This document shows, piece by piece, positions 307-22,305 of a stretch of DNA of 23,347 nucleotides. Made by a program: the position numbers and the translations under genes. Each line of letters opens with the position of its first letter. Within the stretch, counting starts at the first letter, position 1. The DNA lies in IMG/VR virus record IMGVR_UViG_3300017818_001862, positions 1-23,347 of that record, one strand, 5' to 3'. This DNA is from a virus. The notes under the pieces were generated by a model that did no database searches, was not told the origin of the DNA, and was given only the letters and a program-made list of their open reading frames with translations.

Positions 307-780
307 CTATTTTTTAATTTTACTTTCGAACTCCTTGATGAACTCGGCGATATACTCGGGTGGATCGTTGAGTTGTACCTGTACTTCGTTCGAGTCCATG
401 ATCGCAGCCTCGGTCATCATGGCTTGAGAAGACTTGAACTTAATGTACATTTGCTTTTTCTCTTTTTGAATACGCCTGAGGAATGCAAACCAAATGATCT
501 GAGTAAAGTATGCAAAAGGATTCTGAGACTTTTCGGGATCGAAGTTATGAATGTATTGAATACAATTCTCAATTCCATCTGAGATCATGTCATCCTTATA
601 CGAATATCCAGAAAAGTTAGGCTTAGTCGCTAGACGAGTCGAAATGAGAAAAATACACTCACCAATGTACTCTGGAATTTTTGGAGTGGGATCACCACAC
701 TCTTCTGCTTCTTTGCAATCAGCCTTATATTGAATAAGAGCTTCGAGTAGACTCTTATTATTCACATAGTTCTTGGCCAT
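307..780 (-). CDS. 55: gp55-like late-transcription sigma factor
   Basis: This 157-residue protein matches the T4 gp55 family of minimal, highly diverged sigma factors that direct host RNA polymerase to late promoters of the TATAAATA type. The best segment, residues about 60-110, has the region-2-like sequence DDMISDGIENCIQYIHNFD followed by NPFAYFTQIIWFAFLRRIQKE, as in sigma region 2.1-2.4. It is slightly shorter than T4 gp55 (185 aa). An AGGAGG ribosome-binding site precedes the ATG, and an early-type promoter lies directly upstream (825-853). TATAAATA boxes elsewhere in the window, and a gp33 candidate, fit a T4-style late switch. Confidence 0.93.
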   Translation of the reverse strand: MAKNYVNNKSLLEALIQYKADCKEAEECGDPTPKIPEYIGECIFLISTRLATKPNFSGYSYKDDMISDGIENCIQYIHNFDPEKSQNPFAYFTQIIWFAFLRRIQKEKKQMYIKFKSSQAMMTEAAIMDSNEVQVQLNDPPEYIAEFIKEFESKIKK

Positions 781-3034: not shown

Positions 3035-3595
3035 CTACTGCCATACTTCATGTCGCCGAGGAACATAAGGACCATTAATCCACGTAATTAATGACCACCT
3101 TCTACCACTCGTCACCGGCGTTATTCTATGATTTAAATTAGACGGGAAGATTATCATCGTCCCCTTTGGTTGCATTGCTTGTGGACTGTGGCCTCGCAAT
3201 TGTAATTCACCACCTTCATATTCACTGCGGTCTGAAAGCTGAACTACCACTGTGTATTTACGTTGAGGTGCTTCTACCATATCCCAGTTTACATCGGCAT
3301 GCCAATTATATTTACCACCAAAGTCATACTTCAATAAATTCATTTGACTTACATGAGTGATGTCGTGCCAACCATCATTATAAGTTACTACTGCATCGTA
3401 GATAGGACGTGTAAGCCAAGGATAATTATCGGGGTTTAAGGCTAGAGTCCTAACGACACGAACTTGAGTATTGAGATTTGACTGACGAGAAGTCATTACT
3501 TCTCCGTTCTCAAATGTGCCATCAGATTGTAAGGCTACAATCCTGTCGATTTCTTCATTACTAAAAAATTGATGTAAGATAATTGGACTTTTCAT
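3035..3595 (-). CDS. 2OG-Fe(II) oxygenase, prolyl 4-hydroxylase-like
   Basis: This protein of 186 residues from the chosen start has a complete double-stranded beta-helix iron site: H-A-D at residues 99-101, a distal His at 156, and an Arg near 165-166 for 2-oxoglutarate. The segment EGGELQLRG and the following FPSNLNHRITPV are typical of the PKHD/prolyl 4-hydroxylase group. Substrates of such phage enzymes are mostly unknown; protein side-chain hydroxylation is a reasonable guess. The first ATG (3604) lies inside the -10 box of the promoter at 3603-3631, so the ATG at 3595 is preferred. That codon sits at the predicted transcription start and has no clear ribosome-binding site. Confidence 0.88.
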   Translation of the reverse strand: MKSPIILHQFFSNEEIDRIVALQSDGTFENGEVMTSRQSNLNTQVRVVRTLALNPDNYPWLTRPIYDAVVTYNDGWHDITHVSQMNLLKYDFGGKYNWHADVNWDMVEAPQRKYTVVVQLSDRSEYEGGELQLRGHSPQAMQPKGTMIIFPSNLNHRITPVTSGRRWSLITWINGPYVPRRHEVWQ

Positions 3596-3602
3596 GCCAA
3601 CC

Positions 3603-3631
3603 ATTCTAACACATTAAATGAGTAATGTCAA
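3603..3631 (-). promoter_or_regulatory. Sigma70-type early promoter for the 2OG oxygenase
   Basis: The minus strand carries TTGACA (3626-3631), a 17-bp spacer and TAGAAT (3603-3608). The expected transcript start, about 7 bases on, coincides with the ATG at 3595, suggesting a leaderless message. The -35 end overlaps the last codons of the upstream gp19-like gene. Confidence 0.82.
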
Positions 3632-4113
3632 CTGGTCTTTTGTACTTTCATATCGTCATATCTGAAAGTAACACTAGCCTTAGGATAAGTAATATCTGAA
3701 GTAGCGAGATCGAGCTCGAGAGATGAAATGCCTGTTGGGAAAGCGTTAGTAAAAACAAATTCCATGTTTGGATTTTTATGGCTATTCATAATCAATACAC
3801 GAATGTCACTTACCAGACCTTCGCCTTGTTGCAATAGTTTATACTGGTCTGTACTATCTGGAGTCCCTACACCTTCGAGCCAGTTGAGAATCTCGAGATA
3901 GTTTTCCATATTTTCATTAACAACAAAGCTGAGATCGAGATCACCATACGCTAATCGATCACCTGTCGCATACAATGCTTTGAGTGGATTAGCTACTTCA
4001 ACCGGCGAGGTGGACACATCAGGAATTGTAAGTGTTTGAGTAAAGAACTCAACATTAGGAATTCTATCAATACTGATAATGAAGTTTGCGGGTGAAAGGT
4101 AATTAGTAATCAT
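3628..4113 (-). CDS. gp19-like tail tube protein
   Basis: This 161-residue protein has the length (T4 gp19 is 163 aa) and layout of T4 tail tube proteins. It has an N-terminal NFIISIDRIPNVEFFTQTLTIP strand pair, a central GDRLAYGDLDLSFVVNENMENYLEILNWLEG section resembling the gp19 segment leading into its F-x-D-W helix, and C-terminal strands ending FPTGISSLELD-ITYPKASVTFRYDD. Tail tube and tube-initiator proteins (gp19, gp54) share this fold, so the exact role is open. It is the only structural-type gene in a replication neighbourhood. Its ATG overlaps the gp52 stop (ATGA), and a late-type box lies inside gp52. Confidence 0.68.
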   Translation of the reverse strand: MITNYLSPANFIISIDRIPNVEFFTQTLTIPDVSTSPVEVANPLKALYATGDRLAYGDLDLSFVVNENMENYLEILNWLEGVGTPDSTDQYKLLQQGEGLVSDIRVLIMNSHKNPNMEFVFTNAFPTGISSLELDLATSDITYPKASVTFRYDDMKVQKTS

Positions 4114-7320: not shown

Positions 7321-7349
7321 ATTCTATCACAGTGAATTGCAAATGTCAA
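7321..7349 (-). promoter_or_regulatory. Sigma70-type early promoter for the gp39-gp52 operon
   Basis: The minus strand reads TTGACA (7344-7349), a 17-bp spacer and TAGAAT (7321-7326), with the recurring GGTTGACATTTG flank. It begins the long leftward operon starting with gp39. Confidence 0.9.
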
Positions 7350-7373
7350 CCGTTTTTGAAATTTTTCTTCGTA

Positions 7374-7411
7374 TATATAATATTAGGTGTAACAATTTTG
7401 TAATATTGCAC
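7374..7411 (+). promoter_or_regulatory. AT-rich upstream region with imperfect hairpin
   Basis: Upstream of the secreted-protein gene at 7454 lies an AT-rich stretch (tatatataat) followed by an imperfect hairpin: AGGTG and CAAT on the left pair with ATTG and CACCT on the right (about 7385-7413), with a three-base bulge. There is no good -35 box. It may be a weak promoter with a structured leader; this is inference. Confidence 0.25.
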
Positions 7412-7453
7412 CTGTTCATTTACTCAATTCGTTGAGATCACAAGGAGAAAGTC

Positions 7454-7783
7454 ATGAAGGTACTTACCTTTACTGCGGCGTTAGCGCTGCTCATATCTAC
7501 CTCTCAAGCATTTGCTTTCATACCGAAGAGGTACGATGCTGAAGCTATGGTCACAAAAGACTACCTTTATATCAAAGATGTGAAGGAAGAGTTCTGGCGT
7601 ACCAAAACAGATTGTAGCTATTCTATCACAAAAGACAGTAACGTGTCAATAGTTCATTTGGGTAATAATTCCGGTTCTTCTCGAATCGCTCAAATTAAGC
7701 CAGACCGCTCAACCCTACTTGTCACTATCGACGGGGCCCGGCAGAGATGTCGAGTTCTGGAGATCTCGCAGGCACGCATGTAG
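7454..7783 (+). CDS. Secreted protein of unknown function
   Basis: This 109-residue protein begins with a clear signal peptide (hydrophobic residues 4-18, cleavage probably after the Ala in SQAFA, about residue 21). The mature part has two cysteines (about residues 54 and 98), which could form a disulfide in the periplasm, and no recognised domain. AAGGAG is 6-7 bases before the ATG. It is the first rightward gene and lies divergently from gp39. A role at the host envelope is inferred only from the signal peptide. Confidence 0.8.
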   Translation: MKVLTFTAALALLISTSQAFAFIPKRYDAEAMVTKDYLYIKDVKEEFWRTKTDCSYSITKDSNVSIVHLGNNSGSSRIAQIKPDRSTLLVTIDGARQRCRVLEISQARM

Positions 7784-7922
7784 CCCGTTATAAAAGGTCG
7801 GTCCTACGGGACCGGCTATCAACTACTTAGAAGATGGTCTTGTAGCCATCTTGAACTAGTGCATCTAAGTTATTGATTTCTATGGATATTGCAAAATAAT
7901 TGAAAAAAAATGCAAAAAACGG
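7784..7922 (+). other. Intergenic region with two consecutive hairpins
   Basis: After the secreted-protein stop there are two strong inverted repeats. The first is CGGTCC-TACG-GGACCG (about 7799-7814). The second is AAGATGG, an 8-base loop, then CCATCTT (7831-7852). Neither is followed by a T-run, so these are not canonical intrinsic terminators. They could stabilise the upstream mRNA 3' end. No reading frame with coding signs was seen here. Confidence 0.5.
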
Positions 7923-7950
7923 TTGACATTTGCGTCAGGCGTGGTAGAAT
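7923..7950 (+). promoter_or_regulatory. Sigma70-type early promoter P1 of the rightward accessory block
   Basis: The site reads TTGACA (7923-7928), a 16-bp spacer and TAGAAT (7945-7950), with the same flank GGTTGACATTTGC as the gp39 and gp33 promoters. A second promoter follows about 107 bases later. Confidence 0.86.
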
Positions 7951-8029
7951 GGCTACTATCCAGCCAATAACCATATTCTATCTGATGAGTCTAGTTATAT
8001 GCTTATTCCGAAATGTTCTAAAAAAACGG

Positions 8030-8057
8030 TTGACATAAGCGTACATCGTGATAGAAT
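8030..8057 (+). promoter_or_regulatory. Sigma70-type early promoter P2 of the rightward accessory block
   Basis: The site reads TTGACA (8030-8035), a 16-bp spacer and TAGAAT (8052-8057). The expected transcript start is at about 8064, exactly on an ATG. Confidence 0.86.
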
Positions 8058-8063
8058 AGTATC

Positions 8064-8159
8064 ATGAATTATTGGAGTATGACAGTGAATCAACAAGTAC
8101 TACTCACAGCTTCTTCCATTCTCGTCTTCATGGCGGTTTGGTATTTGATCTTTAGTTAA
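8064..8159 (+). CDS. Very small single-helix membrane protein
   Basis: This open frame of 31 codons ends in a hydrophobic segment (LLTASSILVFMAVWYLIF) and then stops, the look of a phage micro-membrane protein. Three in-frame starts are possible: ATG 8064, at the predicted transcript start; ATG 8079; and GTG 8085, which has GGAG 7 bases upstream and would give 24 residues. It is the first frame after promoter P2. It has no known relatives that I recognise. Confidence 0.5.
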   Translation: MNYWSMTVNQQVLLTASSILVFMAVWYLIFS

Positions 8160-8179
8160 CAACCATAGGTATATATATT

Positions 8180-8380
8180 ATGTACGACGAAGATGTAGCA
8201 GCAGCAATGCAGGAACTTGAGTTAGCAGCCCGCCGCGAAAAGCGCAAGAATGCTAAAGCACTTAAGAACCTCACCAAGACTAAGTCAGACGACTTTGTAT
8301 TATATATCGACAGAGCCGAAGACTTCGATCTTGCTGAGATTGGTAGGGAGGATCTTTACTACCGTGGCGCAGACTATTAA
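8180..8380 (+). CDS. Hypothetical protein, charged
   Basis: This 66-residue protein has a strongly basic central stretch (residues about 18-34, RREKRKNAKALKNLTK) between an acidic helical N-terminus and an acidic C-terminus. No domain is recognised. There is no good ribosome-binding site before the ATG, only an AT-rich TATATATATT run. Its end overlaps the GTG of the next gene, so it is probably part of the P2 operon. Confidence 0.65.
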   Translation: MYDEDVAAAMQELELAARREKRKNAKALKNLTKTKSDDFVLYIDRAEDFDLAEIGREDLYYRGADY

Positions 8381-8546
8381 ACAACTGTTCGAATTATTTA
8401 TGGCTACAATAACATTCTCATTTATTGCGTTAATATTCTTTTTCGCAGTATTCCTTGGTATCGTAGCCAAAGTATTCGAAGTAGCGTTTAATAACGCCTT
8501 TCTTATTTCTATCGTATTATTGTGTATCTTATATGCACTCGCTTAG
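8364..8546 (+). CDS. Small membrane protein
   Basis: From the GTG at 8364 this is 60 residues, with two hydrophobic helices (about 14-34 and 40-58). GGGAGG lies about 12 bases before the GTG; the alternative ATG at 8400 gives 48 residues but has no ribosome-binding site. It overlaps the end of the preceding gene by 17 bases. The function is unknown; such two-helix proteins are common in T4-like accessory regions. Confidence 0.6.
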   Translation: MAQTIKQLFELFMATITFSFIALIFFFAVFLGIVAKVFEVAFNNAFLISIVLLCILYALA

Positions 8547-8557
8547 TGGAGTAGTAA

Positions 8558-8977
8558 ATGGATTTATATGTAAGCGGTCCTAGAGAAGGTAAAGTTCCAA
8601 CTTCACTGCAGGCATCAATTATGCTGGCTGCTAAATCCTTTGCACAACAACTCGGTATTAACCGACTTAAAACTTCAATTCAAATACGTGTACATCAAGA
8701 CATTGTCGTCGAGAAAGGTACTGCCACTGAAGGCCTATGTGAGTGCGTAGACCCTCGTACCTTCATTGTGGATATCGCCCTCTATGGCAATTGGCTAGGG
8801 GTACTAGCCCACGAGTTTGTACACATCAAACAGTTCGCAAGACGCGAGTTGGATCCTCAACTCTCGCGATGGAAAAATAAAAACTACGCTGATACAGATT
8901 ATTGGAATCAGCCTTGGGAGAAAGAAGCTCGACGGCTACAATACAAAATGGTCGAGCGATATGAGAAGGGAGAATAA
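8558..8977 (+). CDS. Zinc metallopeptidase-like protein (HExxH)
   Basis: This 139-residue protein carries HEFVH at 85-89 within a hydrophobic helix (GVLAHEFVHIKQ), the signature of zinc-binding gluzincin or SprT-like peptidases. A Glu in the later PWEKEARR motif (121 or 123) could be the third ligand. It is small, so it is a minimal protease domain or a zinc-site relative with unknown substrate. GGAG lies 6-7 bases before the ATG. Its stop codon is one base from tRNA-Arg. Confidence 0.78.
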   Translation: MDLYVSGPREGKVPTSLQASIMLAAKSFAQQLGINRLKTSIQIRVHQDIVVEKGTATEGLCECVDPRTFIVDIALYGNWLGVLAHEFVHIKQFARRELDPQLSRWKNKNYADTDYWNQPWEKEARRLQYKMVERYEKGE

Positions 8978-12976: not shown

Positions 12977-13744
12977 TTGCGTATTATTATTACTGATGGG
13001 TCAACTGAAATAAAGTATAAGAAGACTCAGTTTACGCCAATTAATGTACCACCCACCACATACTATGTTCCCGAGTATGCTCAAGATCGACCAGCCGCCC
13101 GTACAATCCTTCGTGGATTTATGTATGAGCAGCTAACGCACTCGTTTATTCAACACATTTGTGCTACCTATCCTGGCAATTCAATGATTCATGCCGGTAC
13201 ATTCTTTGGTGATATGCTTCCTTCCTTTTCGGCAGCCAACGCCGATGGTAAAGTTTACGCGTTTGAGCCTGTTCTTGAGAATTATTTCCTTGCCAACATG
13301 TGTGTACAAACAAACAAGCTCGCCAATGTATCTCTCTTTAATGGTGCGCTGTCTAATGAAGTCGGCACTCTTCTTATTGATACCGTATTGCAAGAAAAGC
13401 ATGCAGGTGGGGCTTCTAAAATTTCAGACACCGGCCTTGTTTGTACCAGCTATACAATCGACATGTTCGATATTAAAGACATCGTATTGATTCACCTTGA
13501 TGTCGAAGGATGGGAAGCTCGAGCTCTTCAAGGCGCAATGAAAACACTCAAGAAGAAAAGACCAATCCTTGCGCTTGAAGATTACAATGTATCATGTATG
13601 GAACTACTCGAAGGTATTGATTACGAACTCGTTGGAGAGATTCCTGGCCTTAAACTTTGGGCACCATCTGATAATCCCGATTACATTAAGACGATTAACG
13701 AATTTCTAGCGCGAGAGCGTGCCCGAGGAACACTGACAAGTTAA
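12977..13744 (+). CDS. FkbM family methyltransferase
   Basis: This 255-residue protein carries the SAM-binding motif IHAGTFFGDMLPSF (about 71-84), the acidic strand VYAFEPV (93-99) and the later IHLDVEGWEARALQGA block (about 162-177), all typical of FkbM methyltransferases, which usually O-methylate sugars or small molecules. The only in-frame start before the conserved region is TTG at 12977, with AGGA nearby; the nearby ATG at 12970 is out of frame. It is followed 3 bases later by a glycosyltransferase-like gene, and the two probably act on the same glycan. Confidence 0.88.
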   Translation: MRIIITDGSTEIKYKKTQFTPINVPPTTYYVPEYAQDRPAARTILRGFMYEQLTHSFIQHICATYPGNSMIHAGTFFGDMLPSFSAANADGKVYAFEPVLENYFLANMCVQTNKLANVSLFNGALSNEVGTLLIDTVLQEKHAGGASKISDTGLVCTSYTIDMFDIKDIVLIHLDVEGWEARALQGAMKTLKKKRPILALEDYNVSCMELLEGIDYELVGEIPGLKLWAPSDNPDYIKTINEFLARERARGTLTS

Positions 13745-13747
13745 ATT

Positions 13748-14590
13748 ATGATTGAGAAAATGAAAGGATTCCCGCCATGTCGGGTAATCAACTTGAGAGA
13801 ATGTGAAGATCGTCGACAATATATGCAAACCGAGTTCGCTCGGCTAGGCATTACCGATTATCAAATTGATCAATACGAAAGATTTGAGAAAGGAGATATT
13901 GATGTCATTGGCGAACCAGACGTGCTCGACACGATCGACCTCGGCCCAACCACTTCTCATTTAATGACAATTAAAAAATGGTACGAAGAGACTGACGACG
14001 AAATGGTCGCGATCTTTGAAGACGATTGTGATTTCGGTGTGATAGACCTGTGGCCATTTAAATTCCAAGAACTGCTCGATCGAATGGGTCCATTGTGGGA
14101 TGGGATTTCGCTTTGTGTAATGCATGAAGGATGGCCTGTCATGTATCCACGACATCGCAATGGATTTGATCATGGTCTACAATGCTATATCATTAAGAGA
14201 CATTACGCTAAAAAGATTATTGATTGGTATTTCTATGACAAGAGAACTGTTCACTTTAAAATGCCATACATCACAAGACAGGCTGCTCCAAAAGATGGGC
14301 CGAGATCTGGTGATTTTAAAAAGTGGCCGGCAACGATTGAAAATGTCGTGTTTGGTTTAGGGTATTTCTATATCTACCCAATATTCAACCATGCAATACA
14401 TAAGTTCCCTACCACAACCGAGCATTGCGATGCAAATGGCGATTACGAGAATGTCGCCGAGAGAAGTTATGATTATATCTATGAGTGGTGGAGAAAGAAG
14501 GGGCAACACGCAACCCTAGATCAATTATTTGATTACGATTGGTGTTGCTCCGGTAATCAGACGTTTAATAACGTCATGCCAATAGACTAA
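13748..14590 (+). CDS. Glycosyltransferase family 25-like protein
   Basis: This 280-residue protein begins with CRVINLRECEDRRQYMQTEF (about 11-30), the INL-x-x-xxDRR pattern of GT25 (LPS-type galactosyltransferase) enzymes. It then has a TTSHLMTIKKW segment (about 68-78) and the metal-binding VAIFEDDCDF (about 87-96, EDD at 91-93). The rest is rich in aromatic residues and ends with cysteines. GT25 enzymes transfer sugars to lipopolysaccharide or protein. The acceptor here, whether virion, phage DNA or host surface, is unknown. Confidence 0.78.
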   Translation: MIEKMKGFPPCRVINLRECEDRRQYMQTEFARLGITDYQIDQYERFEKGDIDVIGEPDVLDTIDLGPTTSHLMTIKKWYEETDDEMVAIFEDDCDFGVIDLWPFKFQELLDRMGPLWDGISLCVMHEGWPVMYPRHRNGFDHGLQCYIIKRHYAKKIIDWYFYDKRTVHFKMPYITRQAAPKDGPRSGDFKKWPATIENVVFGLGYFYIYPIFNHAIHKFPTTTEHCDANGDYENVAERSYDYIYEWWRKKGQHATLDQLFDYDWCCSGNQTFNNVMPID

Positions 14591-15492: not shown

Positions 15493-15713
15493 TACTTTTT
15501 CTCCAGCTTTTTAAGTTTTTGTTCTATTTTTTTCAACCTTGCGTCAAGCGATTCCCATTGCTCGAATTCACAAAGATCTTTTGCAGGGTGACTATCCTTC
15601 TCTAACTTTTCTATTCTTTCTAGGACACTTGGTGAACCGATACGCCAGTCCCAGAATGGATCAATCACTGAGAGAAGTAATTCCTTAGTTCTGTTTACCT
15701 TTTGTTTGATCAT
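15492..15713 (-). CDS. Hypothetical protein, C-terminal coiled coil
   Basis: From ATG 15713 this is 73 residues: a basic N-terminus, a conserved-looking VIDPFWDWRIGSPS segment, and a coiled-coil tail rich in Lys and Leu (ending KIEQKLKKLEKK). It overlaps the lipase 3' end by 29 bases. A GTG at 15668 with AAGGA upstream is an alternative start just after the lipase stop. No family is recognised. Confidence 0.65.
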   Translation of the reverse strand: MIKQKVNRTKELLLSVIDPFWDWRIGSPSVLERIEKLEKDSHPAKDLCEFEQWESLDARLKKIEQKLKKLEKK

Positions 15714-16482
15714 AATTGCTCGCTGTATATGCACAATAGTAATCAGCTCCATGATCATATAATCCATCGAACACTTGACCTTTACGAATAGCTCTCCACC
15801 TACCTTTCCACTTATCAATAAAGTCTTCCCAGTAAGTGAATTTCTTCAAGATCCCTGTGTAATTAAAGTACATACATTCGCCGTGATGGCGATATCCCAT
15901 CCATCTAAATGGAACCGTCGGAACAATATCGTTGTTATTAACAAATCGATAATGCTTTACGTTTTTGCACGCTTCGATAAAGGCTTTATTACCAACGCGT
16001 GGGGATCCGTAAGTATATAAAGAATCAATGCGATCCTTCATTCTACTTGCCGCGATCGTGGCCATCGCTCCACCGAGCGAATGCCCACACATTGTAAGCC
16101 TTTTCGAGGCGTGCGGTTTTGAGTCAACGACCTTGCGTACGTTTTCCCAAATTTTTTCGACTTCGTTTTGAAAGCCATTGTGAACAAGTCCCCCAACCTC
16201 TCCACGATCTGGCCAAGCGTTAAGATCAGCTTTAAGATCACTAATCTCAGTTGGCTCTGTGCCTCTAAAACAAAGTACGATTTCTTCTTTGTTCCAGACG
16301 GCATAGGCTTGCGCCCCGTCTTTTTCAAAGAATTTTAAGCCGGTGTAACCTAGAGCTTTATAAAGTGGTTTAGCTTCTTGTATATCTGCATACGCGTGTG
16401 CTGACATGTATGCATGCTTAGCTGCTACCATTAATGTTTGTTCTCTGTCGTACAACTCTCGCGCGACTTCATTTAACATCAT
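15685..16482 (-). CDS. Class 3 lipase (alpha/beta hydrolase)
   Basis: This 265-residue protein has a Lipase_3 fold. The nucleophile elbow is GHSLGG with Ser135 (residues 133-138). The catalytic Asp is likely Asp185 in VNNNDIVPTVP, and the His is likely His244 in GLYDHGADYY. The upstream CFRGTEP segment (71-77) and the TYGSPRVGN motif (157-165) are also typical. There is no signal peptide, so it acts inside the cell unless released by lysis. It heads a leftward operon of small membrane and basic proteins, suggesting membrane or storage-lipid attack late in infection. Confidence 0.87.
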   Translation of the reverse strand: MMLNEVARELYDREQTLMVAAKHAYMSAHAYADIQEAKPLYKALGYTGLKFFEKDGAQAYAVWNKEEIVLCFRGTEPTEISDLKADLNAWPDRGEVGGLVHNGFQNEVEKIWENVRKVVDSKPHASKRLTMCGHSLGGAMATIAASRMKDRIDSLYTYGSPRVGNKAFIEACKNVKHYRFVNNNDIVPTVPFRWMGYRHHGECMYFNYTGILKKFTYWEDFIDKWKGRWRAIRKGQVFDGLYDHGADYYCAYTASNYDQTKGKQN

Positions 16483-16510: not shown

Positions 16511-16524
16511 TATTTATATAAATA
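16511..16524. promoter_or_regulatory. Bidirectional late promoter palindrome
   Basis: This is a perfect 14-bp palindrome, TATTTATATAAATA. The rightward half gives TATAAATA (16517-16524) towards heme oxygenase, and the leftward half gives TATAAATA (16511-16518) towards the lipase. T4 late promoters consist mainly of this octamer. The two boxes overlap by two bases, so divergent late transcription is plausible from one site. Confidence 0.6.
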
Positions 16525-16626: not shown

Positions 16627-17172
16627 ATGACCGTTAACCTTAAACAACTTACACAAAGACATCACGACATGGCCGAGCAGTCTAAGTTTGCTGGTATGCT
16701 ATTGAGTGGTGATATATCTGCAGTCGCTTATCAACACTATCTTCGCTCTCAATACGAAATGTATAAAGTGCTTGAAGAAAGAGTACATCTTGAGCAAGAT
16801 TTGCGCGGTGTTTTTCGAGCAGACCGGATACTCGCAGACCTAACAGAACTCGAAGAAAACTTTAACCTTCAATGGATCGATGAAAATTTGCTTACGGTCG
16901 ATCGATATATTGACCACATCTTGTCACTCGAAGATAACGATGACTTAATGGCTCACGTATACGTAAGACATTTTGGTGATATGCATGGCGGACAAATTAT
17001 TAAGAAGAGAGTGCCGGGCTCAGGCACGATGTATGAGTTTGAAAATCGAAGAGAGCTTATTTCGGGACTCAGAGAACAACTACACGATGACATGGTAGAC
17101 GAAGCAATTCGATGCTTTGAGTTTGCTACCGAGCTCTTTAAAGAACTCGACGACATGTTTGGTCATTTATAG
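16627..17172 (+). CDS. ho1: Heme oxygenase
   Basis: This 181-residue all-helical protein fits the HO-1 family, which opens heme to biliverdin, CO and iron using reduced ferredoxin in bacteria. The proximal heme ligand is likely His13 in HDMAEQSKF, matching the H-x-x-AE of the family. The distal helix carries FGDMHGGQIIKK (116-127), corresponding to the GDLSGGQ motif; His120 replaces a usual Ser. It is slightly shorter than plastid and cyanophage HO1 (about 230 aa). GAGG precedes the ATG. The bilin reductase starts 9 bases after its stop. Confidence 0.9.
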   Translation: MTVNLKQLTQRHHDMAEQSKFAGMLLSGDISAVAYQHYLRSQYEMYKVLEERVHLEQDLRGVFRADRILADLTELEENFNLQWIDENLLTVDRYIDHILSLEDNDDLMAHVYVRHFGDMHGGQIIKKRVPGSGTMYEFENRRELISGLREQLHDDMVDEAIRCFEFATELFKELDDMFGHL

Positions 17173-17181
17173 GAAAAGACT

Positions 17182-17862
17182 ATGATTGATACACCAATTT
17201 TGAACCGGCTAAGAAAGCTAGCCGAAGATATTACAGCCATATTCGATAAAAGAATGGAGCGCTACGATAACTCCAAACACATCCACGAGTTTGAAGGATG
17301 GACTGATACGTTCTGGAAGTCTGACACAATTCGTAAATGCCACCTCAAAATTATTGAGCCAATCGAAGGTAAGCCTAAGCTATGGCTCATGCATATTAAC
17401 ATTTTTCCGAATACGAATGAACGTCTCCCGATACTAGGTTTAGACGTAGTCTCTGGTCCAAATAAAATTAGCGGATCCTTTTTTGACTTCTCTCCAGTTA
17501 CAGATGAGATTGATCCCATGATTCAAACGTTTGCAGCTGCTACCGCAAATCTCGTTTGGAAGAAAGAACGTGAGCTTCCACCTTGGGCCCAAGAAATTTT
17601 CTCACCACACATGGTAGCAGCAGGTAATGTACGAGAAGAAGAGACAGAACAGTTTTGTGAGACCGCACTCAATCTGATTCAATACTATGTGATGAGTATG
17701 TACTCCTCTGATAGTAAGGCTTATGATACTAAAGCTGCGCACAATAAATACTGCATTAATCAAAAAAAGAATCAGCAGCTTTGGAACTCTCTCAAAGCAA
17801 TGAAACTTGATAGTGATAAAATTGACCAATATGTAAACAATGTTTTGTTTGAAGAAATCTAA
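17182..17862 (+). CDS. pcyX: Ferredoxin-dependent bilin reductase, PcyX-like
   Basis: This 226-residue protein aligns with PcyA-type reductases, which reduce biliverdin with electrons from ferredoxin. Residues 51-106 follow the PcyA core: RKCHLKI, HINIFP, LPILGLDVVSG, FFDFSPV. The catalytic His88 and Asp105 of PcyA correspond to His71 and Asp88. PcyA Glu76, needed for exovinyl reduction, is replaced by Lys56. The C-terminal YC-x5-N block and VLFEEI end also match. Placement next to heme oxygenase and the missing Glu fit PcyX, known from marine phage sequences to make phycoerythrobilin. AGGAAAA precedes the ATG. Confidence 0.88.
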   Translation: MIDTPILNRLRKLAEDITAIFDKRMERYDNSKHIHEFEGWTDTFWKSDTIRKCHLKIIEPIEGKPKLWLMHINIFPNTNERLPILGLDVVSGPNKISGSFFDFSPVTDEIDPMIQTFAAATANLVWKKERELPPWAQEIFSPHMVAAGNVREEETEQFCETALNLIQYYVMSMYSSDSKAYDTKAAHNKYCINQKKNQQLWNSLKAMKLDSDKIDQYVNNVLFEEI

Positions 17863-17917: not shown

Positions 17918-17934
17918 ACCTAAGGAGATTTAAA

Positions 17935-18345
17935 ATGAAGCAGTTATTGCTATCTATTATGGCGCTTGTTGCGACAAGCGCATTTGCACATACCATTACA
18001 TATGATAATGGTGATGTATATACGGTTGCTGAAGACGAATACGTTTTCGTTTCGAAGCGATCTGAGTTGTGGAGACGCTCTGTCTATAATAACGGTAAAA
18101 CGATGCGATATGAAAAAATCGTACCGACCGAAAAAGTAGATTACGTCCCACCAGACACTGGTGTAGACGGTGAAGCGTTTGGTAGTCACGAGTGGTGCAA
18201 AGCATATACACCGTGGAGCGAAGGTTACACTTTCACAATGCAGTATTGGCAACGTGGTTGCGACACTAACAACGATAACAAATATGGTTGTGGTGACGAG
18301 AAATACGATGCCTCAGAGGATGGAGCGGCTTGTCCCTCCAGCTAA
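17935..18345 (+). CDS. Secreted cysteine-containing protein
   Basis: This 136-residue protein starts with a signal peptide (MKQLLLSIMALVATSAFA, cleavage after residue 18). AAGGAG lies 7-8 bases before this ATG, which decides the start over longer frames. The mature part has four cysteines in the C-terminal half (EWCK, RGCD, YGCGD, AACP), with an acidic NNDNKYGCGDEKYDASEDG stretch that could bind metal. No family is recognised. A strong terminator follows. Confidence 0.8.
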   Translation: MKQLLLSIMALVATSAFAHTITYDNGDVYTVAEDEYVFVSKRSELWRRSVYNNGKTMRYEKIVPTEKVDYVPPDTGVDGEAFGSHEWCKAYTPWSEGYTFTMQYWQRGCDTNNDNKYGCGDEKYDASEDGAACPSS

Positions 18346-19173: not shown

Positions 19174-19413
19174 ATGTCCGTCGTGAAAATGACACCTGAA
19201 AAAATACATCACGATATTTCTAAAATGATTGCAAGCGGTGTTCCATACATCGATGCTCTTATTCATTATGCCGAGAAGAATAATCTCGAGATTGAGTCCA
19301 TTGCTGATATTGTTAAAAAGTCGTCGATCTTAAAAGAGAAAGTAAGATCAGAAGCAGTTGACTTGAAAATGGTAAAGCACGATGAGCCTGACATCACCGA
19401 CCTATGTAAATGA
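19174..19413 (+). CDS. 33: gp33-like late transcription co-activator
   Basis: This 79-residue small helical acidic protein lies just before gp59 and gp32, where gp33 is found in T4-like phages. In T4, gp33 binds the RNA polymerase beta flap and links it to the sliding clamp for late transcription. The sequence (MTPEKIHHDISKMIASG and onward) fits the shorter gp33 proteins of marine T4-likes, but identity rests largely on position. The ATG at 19174 has a strong AAGGAGG; a TTG one codon earlier is less likely. Its end overlaps gp59 by 32 bases. Confidence 0.66.
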   Translation: MSVVKMTPEKIHHDISKMIASGVPYIDALIHYAEKNNLEIESIADIVKKSSILKEKVRSEAVDLKMVKHDEPDITDLCK

Positions 19414-19984
19414 TAAATCATTCGAAGCGTATGTAAAGTACCTTGCACTGAAGAAACATTTTACTACAGATGGCTATGACTATCATAAGTATAATGGCAA
19501 GGTACGAGCTTCGATGGACGCGTTCCGTTCTCGCAATGATGCTTTCTTTTTTGCAAAGCTCGCTGGTAAGGACGATTACGTAAATAGAATTCTATCTAAT
19601 ATGTTAAAGAAGCCCAATATCTGGGTAAGAGATATACTCGAAAGTGAGGGCGATAACGTATATATAGAATGGAAACGAAAGCAGGAGTCACTCTCCTACA
19701 CTTTCAAATCCGAACTGAAGTTGCTTGATCCAAACTATCAAAACAACTTCATATCACGTGATGGGCAACACCCTATCATTATGACGATGTACTTGAGAAA
19801 AGAGATCTCGCTTGAGACCTTTACGTTGCTTACCCACTACGCAAATATTTTTGCATATTGGGATAAAATTTTGGTTGACAAAATCGTATCACGTGATATA
19901 ATTAGAATGGCTAGAAAGTATAAACCCTTCCTAGCAATTGATGATAAAAAGTTCAAAGACATTGTCCGCGAACATTTTGTTTAA
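19382..19984 (+). CDS. 59: gp59 helicase loader
   Basis: This 200-residue protein aligns with T4 gp59 (217 aa). It has YVNDKSFEAYVKYLALKKHF at the N-terminus, the YDYHKYNGKVRASMDAFRSR section and DAFFFAKLAGKDD (T4: YNWCMRVSDAAYQKRRDKYFFQKL), and a C-terminal ISLETFTLLTHYANIF like the T4 ISFETFILLDSFLNII. gp59 loads gp41 helicase onto gp32-covered forks, and both partners follow in this operon. It contains a promoter in its 3' end that should raise gp32 expression. Confidence 0.92.
   Translation: MSLTSPTYVNDKSFEAYVKYLALKKHFTTDGYDYHKYNGKVRASMDAFRSRNDAFFFAKLAGKDDYVNRILSNMLKKPNIWVRDILESEGDNVYIEWKRKQESLSYTFKSELKLLDPNYQNNFISRDGQHPIIMTMYLRKEISLETFTLLTHYANIFAYWDKILVDKIVSRDIIRMARKYKPFLAIDDKKFKDIVREHFV
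19875..19902 (+). promoter_or_regulatory. Internal promoter in gp59 driving gp32
   Basis: The site reads TTGACA (19875-19880), a 16-bp spacer and TATAAT (19897-19902), both consensus, inside the gp59 coding sequence and about 125 bases before the gp32 ATG. It suits the high demand for the single-strand binding protein. Confidence 0.78.
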
Positions 19985-20027: not shown

Positions 20028-20948
20028 ATGGCACCTACAAACTTCGCTGCACTTAAGAAAAACCGTAGCAAATCCCTCGACAAGCTAAATCAACAGCTTG
20101 AAAAAATCTCATCCAAGACCTACTCCGATCCTAACGAAGGTAAGATTTGGAAGCCTGTCCGCGACAAAGCTGGCAATGGTTTCGCTATCATTCGTTTCTT
20201 GCCTGCACCTCAAGGTGAAGAAATGCCTTTCGTTCGTATCTGGGATCATGGCTTTCAAGGCCCTACTGGTCTCTGGTATATTGAAAACTCTCTTACTACT
20301 TTAGGGCAAGACGATCCCGTTTCTGAGTTCAACTCCAAGCTCTGGAACTCCGGCGTTGACGCTGACAAAGAACAAGCACGTAAGCAAAAGCGTCGCCTCA
20401 AGTACGTCTCTAACATCTACGTTGTGAAGGACCCCGCTAATCCTGAAAACGAAGGTAAGGTTTTCCTCTATCAGTTCGGTAAGAAAATCTTTGATAAGTT
20501 GAATGACCTTATGAATCCTACGTTCGAAGACGAGGATCCAGTAAACCCGTTCGACTTGTGGGAAGGTGCAAACTTCCGCTTGAAGATTCGTCAATTCGAA
20601 GGCTATCCTAACTACGATAAGTCTGAGTTTGACTCGCCTGAGCCTCTCTTCGCAGATGACGATGAGATGGAAAAAGTGTGGAATCAAGAACACTCACTTA
20701 ACGAGGTGATTGATCCCAAGAACTTCAAGTCTTACACTGAGTTGAAAACCAAGCTTTATCGAGTGCTTGACCTCACCGCAGACGAGCCCGTTGCTTCTTC
20801 TCCAATGGAAGAAGAAGACGACCTTGATCTCGGTGGTTTAGCTACTGCTGCTCCTGAAGCACCAGTCGCAGAATCTCCTATGGAAACTAACGTGGTTGAA
20901 GATGACGACGATGATCTGTCAATCTTTAAAGAACTGGCACGAGGTTAA
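20028..20948 (+). CDS. 32: gp32 single-stranded DNA-binding protein
   Basis: This 306-residue protein has the basic N-terminal cooperativity region (AALKKNRSKSLDKL), the OB-fold core (GKIWKPVRDKAGNGFAIIRF, then IYVVKDPANPENEGKVFLYQ and FGKKIFDKLN), WEGANFRLKIRQFEGYPNYD, and an acidic C-tail ending DDDDDLSIFKELARG for partner binding. It contains no cysteine, so the T4 zinc site is absent. The ATG at 20028 has AAGGAG 8 bases upstream; a longer frame is rejected. It coats single-stranded DNA in replication and recombination, with UvsX, UvsY and gp59. Confidence 0.96.
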   Translation: MAPTNFAALKKNRSKSLDKLNQQLEKISSKTYSDPNEGKIWKPVRDKAGNGFAIIRFLPAPQGEEMPFVRIWDHGFQGPTGLWYIENSLTTLGQDDPVSEFNSKLWNSGVDADKEQARKQKRRLKYVSNIYVVKDPANPENEGKVFLYQFGKKIFDKLNDLMNPTFEDEDPVNPFDLWEGANFRLKIRQFEGYPNYDKSEFDSPEPLFADDDEMEKVWNQEHSLNEVIDPKNFKSYTELKTKLYRVLDLTADEPVASSPMEEEDDLDLGGLATAAPEAPVAESPMETNVVEDDDDDLSIFKELARG

Positions 20949-20956
20949 ACTAACCT

Positions 20957-21241
20957 ATGTCAGATAAACCCGAAACAATACTCGACTTTGATTTTGGCTT
21001 TACGGCTGTAGATGCAGACGAGCTTGATGTAGTACGAGAAGCAAAAGCCGCGGTAGAAACAACTTCTGCCTCGGCTGATGCTAATGCTGCTAAAGCTCAA
21101 CTCATCTATGATGCAGTCGTGCCTTTGCTCAACAACCTCAAAGCGAATCCCGAAAAAGATTATATCTATTGGCCGGATCGCTATGACAAACTTGACGCAT
21201 TTGCAGACAAGCTATATCAAATCTTGAAAGGAGATTCTTAA
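20957..21241 (+). CDS. Conserved small protein between gp32 and uvsX
   Basis: This 94-residue acidic protein begins MSDKPETILDFDFGFTAVDA, then has an Ala-rich helix (AAVETTSASADANAAKAQ) and a C-terminal helical part with DYIYWPDRYDKLDAFADKLY. Proteins of this kind sit at the same place in other marine T4-likes, as far as I recall. The function is unknown but probably linked to replication. Its stop and the uvsX ATG overlap (TAATG). Confidence 0.82.
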   Translation: MSDKPETILDFDFGFTAVDADELDVVREAKAAVETTSASADANAAKAQLIYDAVVPLLNNLKANPEKDYIYWPDRYDKLDAFADKLYQILKGDS

Positions 21242-22305
21242 TGAGCTTACTTGATAAAATGCTCAAAGCAGGTTCGGTAAAGGGATCATCTGTCTTAGCG
21301 AAGAGTACATTCTTCAATGAGAAAGACCCTATCCAAACTGAGCTACCTATCGTCAACATTGCTTTTAGTGGTTCATTGAAAGGTGGACTAATTCCTGGCC
21401 TCACTGTGATTGCTGGTGAATCTAAAAGCTTTAAGACTTTGTTGTCACTCTATTGTATGAAAGCTTATCTCAAAAAGTATGACGATGGTATCGCCATGCT
21501 GTATGATTCTGAGTACGGTATCACACCTGAGTATCTCGAAGGTATTGGTATCGATACAAATCGAGTCCTACACATTCCAATCGAAGACGTTGAGCAACTG
21601 AAGTTTGACTTGACTAAGCGATTGAATGAGATTGAGAAAGGCGATCGTGTATTTGTTATGATTGACTCTATTGGTAACCTTGCTTCTCGTAAAGAAGTGG
21701 AAGACGCTGAAAACGAAAAGTCAGTTGCCGATATGTCACGTGCAAAACAACTTAAGTCACTGTTCCGTATCGTCACACCGAAGTTGACTGGAAAAGACAT
21801 TCCTTTGTTGGCTATTAACCATACATACAAAGAGATTGGATTATTCCCGAAGAACATCGTGTCCGGTGGTACTGGTATCTACTACTCTGCTAATCAGATT
21901 TTTATTATCTCAAAGGCACAAGAGAAAGATGGTACCGACCTTGCAGGATTTAGGTTTACGATTAACATTGAAAAATCTCGCTATGTAAAAGAAAAGTCCA
22001 AGCTACCGTTCAAAGTCATGTATGACAGTGGCATCCAAAAGTGGTCCTCATTGTTTGACTTAGCTCTTGAATCAGGCCATTTGACAAAGGCCAACCAAGG
22101 ATGGTATAATATGGTAGATATGGATACAGGTGAGATCATTGAGCCTAAGCGTCGAGCGAAAGATATTGAGCAAGACGATGAGTTCTTCCAAGGATTGGTT
22201 GAAGATGAAAGATTCAATGATTTTGTTGAACGTAAATTTAAACTGCTAATGGCTGACGAGGAACAAGATGTTAGAGAAGACGATACTGTCGAACTTGATT
22301 CTTAA
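21241..22305 (+). CDS. uvsX: UvsX recombinase (RecA-like)
   Basis: This 354-residue protein is homologous to T4 UvsX (about 390 aa). Walker A is GESKSFKT (59-66), close to the T4 form, and the Walker B-type strand is VFVMIDSIGNL (about 137-147). The later LLAINHTYKEIG segment and GGTGIYYSANQIFIISK also match. The C-terminus is acidic. UvsX carries out strand exchange with UvsY and gp32. The ribosome-binding site is AAGGAG. It overlaps gp41 by 38 bases. Confidence 0.95.
   Translation: MSLLDKMLKAGSVKGSSVLAKSTFFNEKDPIQTELPIVNIAFSGSLKGGLIPGLTVIAGESKSFKTLLSLYCMKAYLKKYDDGIAMLYDSEYGITPEYLEGIGIDTNRVLHIPIEDVEQLKFDLTKRLNEIEKGDRVFVMIDSIGNLASRKEVEDAENEKSVADMSRAKQLKSLFRIVTPKLTGKDIPLLAINHTYKEIGLFPKNIVSGGTGIYYSANQIFIISKAQEKDGTDLAGFRFTINIEKSRYVKEKSKLPFKVMYDSGIQKWSSLFDLALESGHLTKANQGWYNMVDMDTGEIIEPKRRAKDIEQDDEFFQGLVEDERFNDFVERKFKLLMADEEQDVREDDTVELDS

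Follow-up and report, generated by a model that had tools for sequence, protein, structure and literature searches.

Bilin genes in phages of non-photosynthetic bacteria have been called enigmatic (PMC11480375). A heme oxygenase (HO) gene followed by that of a ferredoxin-dependent bilin reductase (FDBR) in a T4-like phage raises the question of what such a pair would make, when, in which host and to what benefit. The window, i.e. the whole stretch of DNA analysed, is a 23,347-base virus record (IMGVR_UViG_3300017818_001862) and represents a fragment of a phage genome.

The cassette and its T4-like surroundings

Both genes lie on the plus strand with a gap of 9 bp, exactly as the first-pass annotation had placed them, and the Pfam, PHROGs and PDB searches concur on the two families. 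The cassette and the genes that define its context are:

16627 to 17172, plus strand: heme oxygenase, short form, 181 aa (PF01126)
17182 to 17862, plus strand: ferredoxin-dependent bilin reductase, Lys clade, 226 aa (PF05996, 5owg, structural model)
307 to 780, minus strand: gp55, late sigma factor (phrog_234, late sigma, 1.1e-61)
19382 to 19984, plus strand: gp59 helicase loader, with which the conserved downstream block begins (phrog_269, 2.2e-50)
20028 to 20948, plus strand: gp32 single-strand binding protein, part of the conserved downstream block (PF08804, 3.4e-46)
21241 to 22305, plus strand: UvsX recombinase, conserved downstream block (phrog_97, 4.1e-87)

The HO matches PF01126 with an E-value of 1e-17 and 65.1 bits (cut-off 23 bits). 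Together with this profile, the proximal His13 and the distal helix (GDMHGGQ, which fits GDxxGGQ) identify it as a heme oxygenase. Among the 84 aligned Lys-clade HOs with letters at these sites, His13, Tyr46, Arg114, Gly117, Gly121 and Gly122 never vary. Site 118, the equivalent of human Asp140, is occupied by Asp in 75 and by Glu in 9 of the 84 aligned sequences. One subclade (L007, L008, L009, L107 and L108) combines the change of the distal Asp118 to Glu with a longer HO-reductase spacing. The AlphaFold model of the HO (pLDDT 92.2) matches heme oxygenases in the PDB (HmuO, TMq 0.81). This model and that of the FDBR were built from alignments of relatives, and the HO alignment (A4) included the phage Mosig (L015).

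For the FDBR, membership of the bilin reductase family had been set beforehand as the test, and it is borne out by a PF05996 match above the curated cut-off (E-value 1.4e-20, 74.4 bits against 31) and by the FDBR fold. The best solved relative by sequence is PcyX_EBK42635 (5owg, E-value 2.6e-32). The AlphaFold model has a pLDDT of 94.1 and can be superposed on PcyA (TMq 0.82) and PcyX (TMt 0.84). In a Foldseek search with this model PcyA, PcyX, PebA, PebS and HY2 are all significant, and PcyA is the closest by E-value.

HO and FDBR are under strong purifying selection: compared with the sister genomes, the window gives a pN of 0.15-0.20 and a pS of 0.84-0.93. As dS is saturated, dN/dS was left out for most pairs. 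Among the matches listed, an HO lies in front of the reductase in all 69 Lys-type contigs with more than 1.6 kb upstream. Because of this constant order and the purifying selection, a chance pairing is excluded. The annotation of a two-gene pathway in a T4-like phage, predicted to lead from heme via biliverdin to a bilin, is therefore upheld as regards HO, FDBR and the nearest PDB sequence, which is a PcyX. The label "PcyX-type" attached to it does not hold, as set out below.

The T4-like context is firm. The window contains the T4-superfamily core genes gp55, UvsW, gp59, gp32 and UvsX and a gp41-type helicase gene that runs off its end, as well as UvsY, gp39 and gp52 (gp39 and gp52 are topoisomerase subunits; the mechanical open reading frame of gp32 starts at 19938, against 20028 as annotated). 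As an addition to knowledge, however, a T4-like (myovirus) setting for such cassettes had already been published, with pelagimyophages and a gp13 tree (PMC11480375). The contig of a sister genome, G007 (169,742 bases), runs collinear to the window, with 83-94% identity for gp55, UvsW, UvsY, gp39, gp52, gp59, gp32 and UvsX, 78% for the HO and 71% for the reductase.

Some other genes of the window are worth recording. A tail tube-like protein gene (3628-4113; G007 copy 77.5%) lies beside the topoisomerase subunit genes and not within the structural cluster, and G007 also has a main tail tube gene. Between UvsY and this gene lies a 2OG-Fe(II) oxygenase gene (3035-3604), which was probably exchanged, since it shares 40% identity with the sister genome copy versus 78-86% for its neighbors. 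A predicted methyltransferase gene stands in tandem with a glucosyltransferase-like gene at 12977-14590, close to tRNA genes. Downstream of the cassette, 17932-18345 encodes a small protein that probably has a signal peptide and matches no family; its identity to the G007 copy is 94%, a higher conservation than that of the neighboring bilin genes.

A lysine at the Glu76 position

PcyA requires Glu76, His88 and Asp105; the first step, at the D-ring vinyl, is considered to take its proton from Glu76 (PMC9800206). Asp55 has been described as the PcyX-specific catalytic residue (PMC11480375). When 5owg is aligned with PcyA, the PcyX Asp falls at the place of Glu76; we infer that this residue is Asp55, given an assumed tag offset of 8 residues in the crystallized chain. 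The corresponding codons of the window are:

17347 to 17349, plus strand: Lys56, at the place of PcyA Glu76 and PcyX Asp55 (Lys in 64 of 67 distinct relatives)
17392 to 17394, plus strand: His71, equivalent of PcyA His88 (137 of 137 distinct relatives)
17443 to 17445, plus strand: Asp88, equivalent of PcyA Asp105 (137 of 137 distinct relatives)

Relatives were collected by an alignment-based scan of viral contigs, at least 561 of which encode a relative (best 80 used), and by a scan with the Mosig reductase (best 80 of 194 contigs used). Among the matches listed, the Glu76 site of 137 distinct relatives is Lys in 64, Asp in 68 and Glu in 5. A second signature site (PcyA position 90) holds Asn in 64, Cys in 69 and Val or Ile in 4 of the 137; the Asn is invariant in the Lys clade, the Cys is found in PcyX.

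In a tree computed with both signature columns removed, 33 Lys-type representatives form one branch (support 95/94) and the Asp type, PcyX, forms another (100/90). The Glu-type reductase of contig L014 stands beside the Asp type, and the Lys and Asp clades lie together opposite cyanophage PcyA. An alphaproteobacterial PF05996 match (L129) was dropped from the tree, being too divergent for rooting (branch length 10). PebS was left out as well; no pebS was found beside the HO in P-SSM2.

Because of Lys56 and the separate branch, the FDBR of the window is not a PcyX in the strict sense. "PcyX-type" was too specific a label: the PcyX-specific Asp55 is Lys in the window and throughout its clade, and the enzyme falls outside the PcyX clade. 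It is not a PcyA either, as the His and Asp are present and Glu76 is Lys. A single residue cleanly sets the Lys clade, a large group of reductases, apart. In the open literature no published name was found for it (subscription papers and supplements lay outside this search), and no assayed member was found in the literature. Lys-type reductases may constitute a further functional class, with a product or reaction order unlike that of PcyA and PcyX and a late bilin in a widespread non-cyanobacterial T4-like lineage; the chances of this are put somewhat below even. The chemistry of the group lends itself to direct testing, as the one residue can be swapped in recombinant enzymes from E. coli and no phage is needed.

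A predicted late promoter and a fixed locus

T4 late promoters consist of TATAAATA and are read by gp55 (PMC1524935). A T4-type late promoter is defined by recognition of this motif by gp55 at -13 to -6 of the transcript; the motif and its enrichment are what is matched here. Upstream of the HO the window contains:

16517 to 16524, plus strand: TATAAATA, predicted gp55-type late promoter for HO-FDBR (exact match)
16511 to 16518, minus strand: TATAAATA, predicted late promoter of the divergent lipase (exact match)
15685 to 16482, minus strand: class 3 lipase gene, divergent from the HO (PF01764, 7.3e-25)

The two motifs overlap and form the palindrome TATTTATATAAATA, which the lipase apparently shares with the HO as a late promoter. 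They account for two of the five occurrences of TATAAATA in the window, where 1.6 are expected. In G007 the motif pair likewise precedes lipase and HO, and further copies stand ahead of the tail sheath gene and of others in the structural region. Close relatives have the lipase gene in the same place; if made late, such a phage lipase could attack membranes at lysis.

Among the matches listed, 39 of 54 distinct cassettes carry TATAAATA within 150 bp upstream of the HO, compared to a mean of 1.1 and a maximum of 4 in dinucleotide shuffles, although the cassette and contig sequences are related and such counts are non-independent events. After collapsing the HOs at 90% identity, the motif is present in 24 of 37 clusters, and 13 are without an exact copy. 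It lies mostly 32-54 bases before the HO ATG in the clusters and 110 bases before it in the window. In the same contigs the motif was not found upstream of the FDBR (0/45), gp59 (0/51) or UvsX (0/51) and was found in 9 of 63 cases upstream of gp32. Since TATAAATA is enriched before the HO and absent before FDBR, gp59 and UvsX, HO and FDBR probably form a two-gene late operon, the timing in the cell being read from the promoter.

The place of the cassette is fixed as well. Among the matches listed, 77 Lys-type contigs extend at least 2.5 kb beyond the FDBR, and in every one of them gp59, gp32 or UvsX follows within 6 kb. The only contigs of that set without this block are L014 (Glu-type), Mosig and L106 (both Asp-type). 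In the Asp-type set, the neck genes gp13/gp14 directly follow the cassette in 70 of 70 contigs (among the best 80 of 194). A role in early metabolic reprogramming is disfavored, because two lineages keep the cassette at two fixed places in a late context.

The window fragment is without a TerL, so the lineage was placed with that of G007. This TerL is closest to that of Sinorhizobium phage phiM12 (60.7%). In the tree it groups with phiM12, Rhizobium phage I1_18 and Pseudoalteromonas phage XG4 (96/97), apart from the cyanophages, Mosig and Melnitz, and hence outside both Kyanoviridae and pelagimyophages. The Lys-clade cassette thus appears to belong to a phage lineage outside Kyanoviridae, separate from the cassettes of pelagiphages.

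Host, role and relation to known systems

The best guess is a heterotrophic, alphaproteobacterial host, as suggested by the G007 TerL tree and by the binning of metagenome-assembled genomes (MAGs). Three cassette contigs are binned in one Rhodobacteraceae MAG, and all three are phage contigs. Indeed, the "bacterial" FDBR matches are phage contigs with the same gp59-gp32-uvsX block. A Bacteroidetes match (L108) was considered as a host pointer and rejected, being likewise a phage contig, which makes MAG binning weak evidence for a host. The reductase was found in none of 297 other genomes from the family of the co-binned MAG. The tRNA-Arg of the window matches Alphaproteobacteria best at 87% over 77 bases and Bacteroidia best at 87% over 67 bases, and thus favors neither group. 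The hosts of HO-pcyX phages in general had been described as uncertain; this no longer applies to all of them, as the pair is present in Mosig EXVC030M, which was grown on HTCC1062 (PMC7892664).

Some Lys-type contigs may also offer a heme supply. A 5-aminolevulinate synthase (AlaS) above the curated cut-off is present in G007, G009, G038 and G039, which are all long Lys-type contigs, and a partial one lies at the contig end of G034; none was found within the window fragment. A Fer2 (2Fe-2S) ferredoxin is present in Mosig, but neither G007 nor any other Lys-type contig searched yielded one. No psbA was found in 15 records, no phycobilisome protein in the relatives searched and no PAS_2 phytochrome domain in searched relatives or in the co-binned MAG G044; the ferredoxin and these three negatives concern those families only, in records that are partly incomplete.

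The favored reading, to which slightly better than even chances are given, is a late bilin operon of a T4-superfamily phage in a heterotrophic, probably alphaproteobacterial host, with a product other than phycocyanobilin. The gp55-type late promoter about 100 bases upstream would yield one message for both enzymes. The HO would open heme to biliverdin IX-alpha, iron and CO. Subsequently, the FDBR would take electrons from host ferredoxin and reduce biliverdin via the conserved His71/Asp88 pair. Since the Glu76 carboxylate is replaced by an invariant Lys, a PcyA-like reduction of the D-ring vinyl is not expected. The product would be an A-ring-reduced bilin, most likely either phycoerythrobilin or phytochromobilin; both are reported from pre-PcyA, which lacks Glu76 (PMC10151467, PMC13193486). 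Confidence in the product is moderate, because the regiospecificity of FDBRs is not reliably predictable (PMC13193486). Removal of biliverdin by the FDBR would pull heme breakdown forward. Given the AlaS of a sister genome, late infection would see heme first supplied and then turned into bilin, and bilin production or a steady turnover of heme accords better with AlaS in this lineage than iron salvage alone.

The reductase could instead have the ordinary PcyX function, the four-electron conversion of biliverdin to phycoerythrobilin known from the pelagiphage enzymes, with Lys56 as a neutral replacement. This is possible but rather doubtful: the closest solved relative by sequence is a PcyX, the Lys and Asp clades stand together in the tree, across from cyanophage PcyA, and a pre-PcyA enzyme from a group without Glu76 also makes phycoerythrobilin (PMC13193486, PMC10151467), but Asp55 is named as the catalytic residue specific to PcyX (PMC11480375), the Lys is without exception in the clade and Asn invariantly replaces the Cys. 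It is unlikely that the benefit resides in heme breakdown itself, through iron or CO release or heme removal, with a reductase that only clears biliverdin. Coupling to a reductase would relieve the product inhibition of the HO, which speaks for this explanation. An iron supply has moreover been proposed for such cassettes (PMC11480375). However, AlaS in the sister genomes feeds heme synthesis, and breaking newly made heme would be pointless as net iron salvage; the retention of both genes together in all testable contigs (among the matches listed) also suggests that the bilin matters.

Retuning or disabling of a host bilin photoreceptor, e.g. a bacteriophytochrome, appears improbable. The PcyA product of the freshwater phage CB_2 does assemble with a phytochrome (PMC11480375), and conversion of biliverdin would presumably deprive phytochromes that use it, but the PAS_2 search was negative and late expression leaves scant time for a change in signaling. 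Least credible, and by far, is a cyanophage that sustains light-harvesting pigments. Although bilin reductases in phage isolates come nearly all from cyanophages and the nearest UvsX comes from a phage with Synechococcus elongatus as its listed host, psbA and phycobilisome proteins were not found in the records named above and the G007 TerL lies outside the cyanophage group.

Earlier work on aquatic phages described HO-pcyX cassettes, part of them accompanied by 5-aminolevulinate synthase, and the marine ones were assigned to pelagiphages through a gp13 tree and their likeness to the isolate Mosig (PMC11480375), which infects Pelagibacter ubique HTCC1062 (SAR11) (PMC7892664). Mosig, with its PcyX (phycoerythrobilin synthase), resembles the window in the HO directly upstream, the Pfam families, the fold, the T4-like phage and the late-gene context. 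It differs in sequence (36% identity for the HO and 33% for the FDBR over the aligned parts, and 31% for the FDBR in alignment A2), in Asp55 and Cys where the window has Lys and Asn, and in the locus, as its cassette precedes gp13 and that of the window gp59-gp32-uvsX. Furthermore, Mosig has the Fer2 ferredoxin not found in G007, and G007 falls outside Kyanoviridae by TerL.

The freshwater phage CB_2 (vHemO/vPcyA and vAlaS) combines an HO and a PcyA/X-like reductase with an AlaS elsewhere, as in G007 (PMC11480375). Its enzyme, set beside the window by description, is a true PcyA that makes phycocyanobilin (PMC11480375). In L014, a 297,258-base phage contig, the HO overlaps the Glu-type reductase found beside the PcyX branch (7340-8570 for the two genes), and this enzyme is possibly similar to that of CB_2.

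Cyanobacterial and cyanophage PcyA has the His88 and Asp105 equivalents in common with the window, and the model is closest to it by Foldseek E-value; it differs in the essential Glu76, which is Lys here, and in phage and context. The pre-PcyA of heterotrophic bacteria is without Glu76, like the window, but also without the His88 that the window keeps, and occurs in chromosomal clusters with globins (PMC10151467). With the HO-pcyX pair already known from phages, and one host known, the cassette is less new than the first-pass annotation held. That annotation mentioned neither the late promoter nor the fixed position, the large clade or the AlaS of a sister genome. Three things are new compared to these systems: the Lys clade, the fixed place of its cassette in a phage lineage that falls outside Kyanoviridae, and the predicted late promoter.
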